Source of the DNA: Fodinibius salsisoli | GTDB taxonomy: Bacteria; Bacteroidota; Rhodothermia; Balneolales; Balneolaceae | DNA: 64,000 nucleotides | Assembly: GCF_026229185.1 (NCBI RefSeq) | Contig: NZ_JAGGJA010000001.1 | Coordinates: 310,001-374,000 of the forward strand | Direction: 5' to 3' | In this document: in pieces, positions 31,286 through 33,713 of the stretch | Position numbering within the stretch: position 1 is the first letter of the stretch | Layout: each line of letters begins with the position of its first letter | Translations under genes and position numbers: made by a program | Notes under the pieces: model-generated | What the model saw: only the letters and a program-made list of their open reading frames with translations | The model's database searches: none | Told to the model about the DNA's origin: nothing

Positions 31286-32581
31286 GTGAATTCCGACATT
31301 CCCAAGCATTCTATAGGCAAAAACTGGGCGAAGAACTATCAGTATCAGGCCCGTCGTCTTTATCAACCGGATACAACCGATCAGGTCCGGGAGCTCATCC
31401 AACAGAGTAATCACATGCGGGTGCTCGGCTCACGGCACTCCTTTAACGGCATAGCGGATTGTGAACACGATTTGCTTTCGCTCGCTAATATCAACGATGT
31501 TATACAATTGGATGAAGAGAAGCGCCAGGCGACCGTAGGCGGCGGCATGAACTATGGTGAGCTGGCTGTTTATCTCCAGGATAAAGGATATGCCCTGCAT
31601 AACCTGGCCTCGCTTCCTCATATTTCAATTCCGGGCGCCTGTGCCACGGCCACCCATGGATCGGGCATCCACAATGGTAATTTGGCAACGGCTGTTTCAG
31701 CTATGGAGATTGTTACGGCAAATGGTAATCTGGTTACCTTTAGTGCGAAAAAAAATGAAGAGGCATTTAAAGGAGCAGTTGTTGGACTTGGTGGACTGGG
31801 AGCCGTGGTGGCAATCACACTGGATATCAAGCCCACCTACAAGGTTAAACAAAATGTCTACCTGGATCTTTCTGCAAAACACCTGGAGCAGCATTTTGAT
31901 GACATCATGTCCAGTGGATACAGCGTCAGTTTCTTTACCGATTGGCGAAATGAAACAATTAATCAAGTTTGGATAAAGGAACAGGTTGAAGAGGGGAACA
32001 CTACTCAAGCTGAACCTACCCTTTTTGATGCTGCACTGGCTGACAAAAATATGCATCCCATTGATGGGGTATCCGCGGAACATTGCACGCCACAGTTAGG
32101 CATTCCCGGTCCCTGGCATCAGCGACTGCCTCATTTCCGCATGGATTTTACGCCCAGTGCCGGCGAGGAGCTGCAATCCGAATTTTTCGTTCCCCGAGAG
32201 CATGCTTACGAGGCCATGAAGAAACTTTTTGCCCTTGGGGACCAAATAACGCCACATCTGCTTACGTCAGAAATCAGAACCATTGCCGGCGATAACCTTT
32301 GGATGAGTCCCTGCTACAAACGTCCCTCTGTTGCTTTCCATTTTACCTGGAAACAAAAACCAAAAGCCGTAAAGAAGATACTGCCGGTCATTGAAGAAAC
32401 GCTTGCTCCCTATGAAGTACGTCCTCACTGGGGAAAAGTTTTTACGATGAATGCTTTAACTATCGCCAGCCGATATCCAAAAATAGCCCACTTCAAAGAA
32501 CTTTTAATGCAGTATGATCCCAATGGCAAATTTCGCAATTCGTACCTCCAAAAGTATATCTTTGCTAGTTATGAGCAGTAG
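31286..32581 (+). CDS. FAD-linked oxidase, alditol oxidase/xylitol oxidase type
   Basis: A 431-residue flavoenzyme starting at GTG 31286. The FAD-binding PCMH half contains RVLGSRHSFNGIAD, in which His51 matches the histidine that covalently holds FAD in AldO of Streptomyces, then ATVGGGMNYGEL and ACATATHGSG. The C-terminal half has the D-arabinono-lactone-oxidase fold with SEIRTIAGDNLWMSP, matching the Glu-Arg active-site pair of AldO. Expected chemistry: oxidation of a polyol terminal alcohol with oxygen, giving peroxide. It follows the SDR gene by 18 bases. Just past its stop lies an array of 23-bp dyad repeats. Confidence 0.88.
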   Translation: MNSDIPKHSIGKNWAKNYQYQARRLYQPDTTDQVRELIQQSNHMRVLGSRHSFNGIADCEHDLLSLANINDVIQLDEEKRQATVGGGMNYGELAVYLQDKGYALHNLASLPHISIPGACATATHGSGIHNGNLATAVSAMEIVTANGNLVTFSAKKNEEAFKGAVVGLGGLGAVVAITLDIKPTYKVKQNVYLDLSAKHLEQHFDDIMSSGYSVSFFTDWRNETINQVWIKEQVEEGNTTQAEPTLFDAALADKNMHPIDGVSAEHCTPQLGIPGPWHQRLPHFRMDFTPSAGEELQSEFFVPREHAYEAMKKLFALGDQITPHLLTSEIRTIAGDNLWMSPCYKRPSVAFHFTWKQKPKAVKKILPVIEETLAPYEVRPHWGKVFTMNALTIASRYPKIAHFKELLMQYDPNGKFRNSYLQKYIFASYEQ

Positions 32582-32586
32582 TTGTT

Positions 32587-32678
32587 CCTTATAACTATAA
32601 TATGTTTATCCTTATAACTATAAGGAGCTTATCCTTACTACTATAAGGTGTTTATACTTATAACTATGAACAGTATAT
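32587..32678 (+). promoter_or_regulatory. Four tandem 23-bp dyad repeats upstream of the dioxygenase gene
   Basis: Units begin at 32587, 32610, 32633 and 32656, exactly 23 bases apart. Each carries a dyad of the form CCTTATA-AC-TATAAGG; units 2 and 3 are complete, units 1 and 4 degenerate at the edges. The array starts 6 bases after the flavin oxidase stop and ends 108 bases before the next ATG. About two helical turns per unit would place bound proteins on nearly one face. It looks like a cooperative operator array. Confidence 0.75.
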
Positions 32679-32786
32679 ACTTACAGGAGGCTCTAAACGG
32701 CACTTTATGGCATAAAATTGGATTTGTCACCGAATATATTAGTAACCATTAACTAAATAAAAGCATTTTTAATCAACCTATTTAAT

Positions 32787-33713
32787 ATGGCACCTTCAGG
32801 CATACACCATATCACAGCTGTTGCAGGCGATGCTCAGCGAAACTATCGTTTCTATGCCCAATTATTGGGACTACGACTCGTAAAGAAGACCGTTAATTTC
32901 GATGATCCTACAGTCTATCATTTATATTATGGAGACGAGTCTGGTCAACCGGGTACGATCCTTACCTTTTTTCCCTGGGAAGAGCTACAGAGTGGCCAAC
33001 CAGATCGGGGACAAGCGGTAGCTGTATCCTTTTTGGTGCCAACAGAATCCAAAGCGTTTTGGACAGACTACCTAAGGAAGCACAATATCAATTTTGGCTC
33101 TACCTTTGAACGATTTGGCAAAGAGATCATTGGCTTGCAAGATCCCGATGGACTGCATCTTGAGCTCGTTTTTGATCCAAAAGCTGATACACTGGATGGC
33201 TGGAGCGGCGGCCCTGTTCCGGCCGAACATGCTATTCGGGGCATCCACGGCGTAACCCTTGCTGAAAAGAGTTATCAGCAAACCGGACGTTTACTGGAAG
33301 AAGACCTCGGCTTTACACTAACCAATCAGTTAGATAGTAGGTATCTGTATGAAGCAGAAGGTGATTTCGGTGCCGTTGTTGAAATCATTGACCAGTTTGA
33401 ACCCAATGGGCGATCGGGCAGGGGCACCGTCCATCATGTGGCTTTCCGGGCAGAAGATGAAAACCACCAGCAATCCATCCGCAGGCGCTTGGCTGAGAAG
33501 GGATATTATTTGACCGAGGTGAAAGACCGTGGGTACTTTAAGTCCGTTTATTTTCACGAACCCGGAGGAGTCCTTTTTGAAATAGCAACGGATCCACCGG
33601 GCTTTACAAAAGATGAAGCGCTTGATGCTCTCGGCACGGAACTAAAACTGCCTGGCTGGCTGGAAGAGCAACGCCATCGTATTGAAGCAGAACTTAAAGA
33701 ACTAACAAGTTAG
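32787..33713 (+). CDS. Ring-cleaving dioxygenase/glyoxalase superfamily protein (MhqO/MhqE-like)
   Basis: A 308-residue vicinal-oxygen-chelate protein with two glyoxalase modules. Likely metal ligands are in GIHHITAVAGD, DGLHLELVFD, VHHVAFRAED and GVLFEIATDPPGF. The full pattern matches the extradiol-dioxygenase-like MhqO/MhqE/LinE group, which opens hydroquinone-type rings; in Bacillus MhqO belongs to the quinone/electrophile stress response. It is monocistronic as seen here, preceded by the 23-bp repeat array and followed by a good terminator. Confidence 0.88.
   Translation: MAPSGIHHITAVAGDAQRNYRFYAQLLGLRLVKKTVNFDDPTVYHLYYGDESGQPGTILTFFPWEELQSGQPDRGQAVAVSFLVPTESKAFWTDYLRKHNINFGSTFERFGKEIIGLQDPDGLHLELVFDPKADTLDGWSGGPVPAEHAIRGIHGVTLAEKSYQQTGRLLEEDLGFTLTNQLDSRYLYEAEGDFGAVVEIIDQFEPNGRSGRGTVHHVAFRAEDENHQQSIRRRLAEKGYYLTEVKDRGYFKSVYFHEPGGVLFEIATDPPGFTKDEALDALGTELKLPGWLEEQRHRIEAELKELTS

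Follow-up and report, generated by a model that had tools for sequence, protein, structure and literature searches.

Tandem 23-bp dyad repeats in Fodinibius salsisoli are candidate DNA sites of an HU/IHF-superfamily protein with a DUF4469 domain

In Fodinibius salsisoli (assembly GCF_026229185.1), the gap between an FAD-linked oxidase gene and a dioxygenase gene is filled by a short array of tandem repeats. What kind of element is this array, and which protein, if any, binds it? The window analysed is a 64,000-nucleotide stretch of contig NZ_JAGGJA010000001.1 (positions 310,001 to 374,000, forward strand). From the letters alone, the array had been described as four exactly phased 23-bp units, each containing CCTTATA-AC-TATAAGG. 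The phasing stands, with starts at 32587, 32610, 32633 and 32656 exactly 23 bp apart; the unit count is five. The units of this array (A1) are contiguous and lie on the minus strand (32698-32584; Table 1). The array starts 2 bp after the oxidase stop codon, and 88 bp separate its end from the start of the dioxygenase gene (32787). TRF gave a period of 23 with 81% matches (32586-32667), and the local score at lag 23 was 48.8, against 8.8 or less at all other lags from 15 to 40. The dyads are imperfect, and the exact form, CCTTATAACTATAAGG, occurs in one unit only (32610-32625) and not in each unit as had been claimed. Two mismatches are present in the unit at 32587, two in that at 32633, and four in that at 32656. 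The dyad fraction of the array is 0.76 compared with 0.63 in column-shuffled units (P 0.03). A CRISPR array was considered and rejected, as the units are contiguous and no unlike spacers separate the repeats.

Table 1. Coordinates in the window of the array, its units and the neighbouring genes.
Feature	Position	Strand	Unit sequence or register	Basis or remark
Whole array, five 23-bp units	32584..32698	-	AACACCTTATAGTTATAAGGATA (register)	TRF, repeat search, unit table, homology to G000:C11:402808-402920
Unit 0 (leader unit)	32676..32698	-	GTTTAGAGCCTCCTGTAAGTATA	Start common to the genome's three arrays of the window type
Unit 1	32653..32675	-	TACTGTTCATAGTTATAAGTATA	Unit table
Unit 2	32630..32652	-	AACACCTTATAGTAGTAAGGATA	Unit table
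Unit 3	32607..32629	-	AGCTCCTTATAGTTATAAGGATA	Holds the sole exact dyad CCTTATAACTATAAGG (32610-32625)
Unit 4	32584..32606	-	AACATATTATAGTTATAAGGAAC	Unit table
Left neighbour: FAD-binding/D-arabinono-1,4-lactone-oxidase-like (ALO-type) gene	31286..32581	+		Context only
Right neighbour: glyoxalase/dioxygenase-superfamily gene	32787..33713	+		Context only; orthologues without array

The closest relative of the window array in the same genome (G000:C11:402808-402920; 81% over 113 bp, blastn E 6e-25) is located 29 kb past the window end, directly 3′ of a gene for a protein with HU-DNA_bdg and DUF4469 (Ig-like) domains. A third array of the same type is found at C7:4416, and all three have the leader GTTTAGAG-N4-CTGTAA in common. 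This outermost unit is the best shared among the three, and the proposal that degeneration of the outer units reflects selection on the middle ones is therefore not supported. A unit profile search detected further arrays in congeners; at an equal threshold, the family's other genera yielded none. Lags 22 and 23 marked 11 array places in a 1.66-Mb sample of three genomes, and other non-triplet lags almost none. The searches covered one genome per species, with about 0.86 Mb of the F. salsisoli genome scanned. A pure dyad scan without a tandem term was too weak alone to find arrays. A GTDB-wide scan for the leader GTTTAGAGN4CTGTAASTATA returned one chance-like match; it lies in a Spirochaetes MAG, where no array accompanies it. 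Viral contigs contained neither an array nor a relative of the HU-DUF4469 protein, and phage records contained no such relative.

In Pfam scans of array neighbours, arrays A2, B3 and C3, each from a different species, proved to abut the 3′ end of genes encoding HU-DNA_bdg (PF14848) and DUF4469 (PF14734), and the remaining scanned neighbours of arrays were unrelated to one another. A genus-wide PF14734 search recovered the HU-DUF4469 gene from 6 of the 12 genomes, with 2 to 8 matches each, fragments included. For 34 HU-DUF4469 genes from the genus, other Bacteroidota, Parabacteroides distasonis and Treponema saccharophilum, an array was called at a score of 15 or more and a period of 22-24 within 450 bp 3′ of the stop codon. 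Arrays follow 30 of these genes, against 0 of the 23 canonical PF00216 HU genes of the genus. Two of the four exceptions have weak arrays (L195 and L200) and two have none (L208 and L209). Under a 50-base window measure (lag 22 or 23, at least 28 of 50 matches, within 450 bp 3′), an array was detected at 19 of 22 full HU-DUF4469 genes of the genus and at 7 of 540 other genes, the 7 including true arrays. An array with a period of 22 accompanies each of three HU-DUF4469 genes in a distant Bacteroidota family. All six in P. distasonis have their own array (period 23 or 24) 0-25 bp after the stop codon, and the gene on T. saccharophilum plasmid pTS2 has its own array (period 23) within the same distance. 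Gene-linked arrays contain about 3-9 units each, are mostly palindromic and differ gene by gene.

Within the genus, confident profile matches to arrays fall in the six congeners that have an HU-DUF4469 gene, and two congeners without the gene showed no such arrays in 0.4 Mb, against 11 places in 1.66 Mb from genomes that have it. A single profile match below 0.001 occurs in a congener without the gene (L097, G004:C67:138869) and apparently lies in coding sequence. Because nearly every HU-DUF4469 gene checked has a private array, the arrangement reads as a protein paired with its own site. The presence of the family in two phyla, with a private array at nearly every gene, points to a previously undescribed pairing of chromosome-binding protein and site.

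Gene-linked array sequences diverge strongly between paralogues, for example GTTATACTAATAAC, GACATACTAATGTC, CATGATAGCTTTCATG and AACACGTCGTGTT. Array likeness follows protein likeness (Mantel P 0.009 over all, 0.018 within the genus). The mean array score is 37 for protein pairs above 65% identity and 16 for those below, and the six most similar array pairs belong to close proteins (64-89% identity). Period is only loosely tied to the protein tree, clustering at about P 0.05. Most solo arrays are best matched by a gene-linked array of their own genome. The window array and A3 match L185 with scores of 106 and 48 (shuffled 95% level, 25), B1 and B2 match L206, B5 matches L186, and C2 matches L197. 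By its sequence, the window array is of the type belonging to the paralogue at G000:C11:402983-403681. A6 matches an HU-DUF4469 gene type seen only in another species, the gene type matching D1 was not found in its genome, and no clear gene-linked partner was found for A5, B6 or C4.

Two solo arrays of the F. salsisoli genome merit mention. The longer, composite one (L239:7576-7749; G000:C11:540676-540849) mixes ACTCATTCCTATGAG-type and CCTTATAAGG-type units, and no gene-linked partner was found for it. The other, with 22-bp units (L254:3402-3517; G000:C22:182502-182617), resembles L186, a gene-linked array from another species, with a score of 75; its matching gene in its own genome may be a fragment at the end of contig C12.

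We propose that an HU/IHF-superfamily protein whose C terminus carries an Ig-like DUF4469 domain binds DNA at the window array, a solo array matching the gene-linked array of a paralogue. From sequence comparison, we give this reading a probability of roughly 70%. The array-linked proteins are members of the HU/IHF superfamily by Pfam and by sequence match to PDB 4FMR. HU and IHF proteins are dimers that bend DNA. An HU-DUF4469 protein, probably dimeric as well, would bind a single dyad in every unit, and stacking of the dimers at intervals of about two helical turns would bend or wrap each array into a cooperative complex. Each protein is proposed to nucleate on its own gene-adjacent array and on matching solo arrays because dyads recurring at 22-23 bp, or about two helical turns, would accommodate HU/IHF-like dimers in a row. 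The most likely arrangement is that each protein binds the array beside its gene together with the solo arrays that match it, in the manner of SopB on sopC. Gene-linked and solo arrays could in this way be joined or marked as a set, and the window array would be a secondary site of the protein encoded at C11:402983-403681. The arrays might influence chromosome structure or neighbouring genes; the complex may organise the chromosome, affect adjacent genes or serve the spread of the repeat itself. More broadly, HU-DUF4469 proteins and their arrays might form widespread private protein-site pairs with co-evolving recognition, in which several mutually exclusive codes per genome act as centromere-like or chromatin-nucleating marks. 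This wider proposal is tentative, and we place it slightly short of even odds.

Among known arrangements, the sopB gene of plasmid F with the sopC site behind it comes closest. The sopC site consists of twelve 43-bp repeats with inner dyads, bound by SopB. As in SopB-sopC and ParB-parS clusters, the gene for a DNA-binding protein is followed here by tandem repeats with inner dyads, which the protein would bind. Unlike SopB-sopC, the protein carries HU-DNA_bdg and DUF4469 domains and is not of the ParB/SopB type, and a genome has several paralogues that differ in repeat sequence, as well as solo arrays. No gene for a ParA/SopA-type ATPase was found among neighbours in seven annotated records or among the Pfam-scanned neighbours. 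Assignment to a ParABS/SopABC partition system was rejected on these features. REP/RAYT systems are similar in their cognate solo copies: type-specific short palindromes lie beside the gene of the cognate protein and as solo copies genome-wide (REP classes, PMC3733652). The arrays described here differ in being direct and tandem, in keeping a constant step of 22-23 bp and in lying to one side of the gene only. The array-linked protein is HU-DNA_bdg plus DUF4469 and has no Y1 HUH transposase, and membership in REP/RAYT was likewise rejected.

A mobile or selfish repeat that resembles REP/RAYT is an unlikely explanation, albeit the best surviving alternative. The HU-DUF4469 gene and its array would then be autonomous, solo arrays would be spread copies, and the protein would aid copying and not the host. 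By Pfam, however, the protein has no transposase or nuclease domain, the array is one-sided, no terminal inverted repeats were seen, and solo copies are few per type. Gene-linked pairs L188/L197 and L184/L193 and the solo pair C2/D1 are alike between species, and C2 and D1 occupy a collinear place in two species. Mobility would fit the patchy distribution of the genes over 6 of the 12 congeners, their several paralogues per genome, the likeness of solo arrays to gene-linked arrays of their own genome, and the finding that A1 and A2 have the array in common and not the flanks. At the orthologous arrays C2 and D1, the adjacent SusC/SusD genes (L145 and L124) are about 40% alike, against nearly 80% for the terminator and array DNA, a pattern suggestive of gene replacement or conversion.

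The original prediction had the window array controlling the dioxygenase gene by binding a MarR or Rrf2 regulator. Its location upstream of the dioxygenase start and an Rrf2 gene 3 kb away are compatible with such an operator. Absence from close relatives had been named beforehand as grounds for refutation: the dioxygenase gene has orthologues throughout the genus, and a 22-23-bp array is absent upstream of all 13 examined. Because these 13 orthologues lack the array, the window array is not a conserved dioxygenase operator. Related arrays also occur in varied settings, between convergent genes (A2, of the window type), between divergent genes (B1) and between tandem genes, with A3, again of the window type, beside unrelated genes, and the array family follows HU-DUF4469 genes. 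Control of the dioxygenase gene is thus highly improbable. The more general claim of a protein-binding array fared better and is likelier than a chance or slippage repeat, since the 22-23-bp step and the dyads recur in dozens of independent arrays.

Action of the arrays as DNA sites is favoured over RNA hairpins in transcripts, which would serve mRNA stability or act as sRNA or antitoxin RNA. In many arrays the dyads exceed those of column-shuffled units, with P between about 0.005 and 0.03, and the excess does not reach significance in every array. In favour of RNA, short hairpins with changes in both arms can be drawn for many units, and the Parabacteroides and Treponema arrays start within 25 bp of a stop codon. 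Mismatched dyad pairs, however, comprise 21 G-T and 18 A-C, so that wobble is not favoured, and inner pairs are unmatched in many units. At least 7 of 25 loci have an intrinsic terminator separating the gene from its array. No array matched an Rfam family at the gathering score, and the one sub-threshold match was attributed to chance. The lack of a G-U preference and the terminator that often parts gene from array argue for DNA, and an RNA role is very doubtful. A functionless minisatellite produced by replication slippage, a process that makes tandem repeats and would suit the varying unit numbers of the arrays, is the least credible explanation, contradicted because the arrays are linked to one gene family, in two phyla, and opposed by their dyads and by a period of 22-23 that is constant across unrelated sequences with other periods almost absent.

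HU proteins are textbook, nearly sequence-blind DNA packers. If the proposed pairing is true, the HU-DUF4469 proteins would be a sequence-specific HU sub-family whose recognition codes change rapidly, offering a natural experiment on the gain and switch of specificity in a DNA-binding fold and perhaps a counterpart, on chromosomes, of plasmid centromeres. For the many uncharacterised HU-DUF4469 proteins found in gut Bacteroidota and oral treponemes, the arrays supply a predicted DNA target open to direct testing. Burroughs and colleagues reportedly surveyed HU clades in 2017; that survey may treat the HU-DUF4469 clade and may already have noted linked repeats. DUF4469 is named in none of 5.39 million open-access papers, and both Pfam accessions were found only in a paper on T. 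denticola TDE_2259, which names PF14848 and PF14734 and mentions no linked array (PMC12724145).

Genes next to the gene-linked arrays vary. In two congeners (L188 and L197), the HU-DUF4469 gene and its array are followed by a gene for a patatin-like phospholipase. In the annotated loci L213 and L214, the next gene is a leucine-rich-repeat gene in Treponema, and fimbrillin genes follow in Parabacteroides. L211 and L212 contain, besides the 22-bp array, a second array with a period of 24 or 25 and a different unit.
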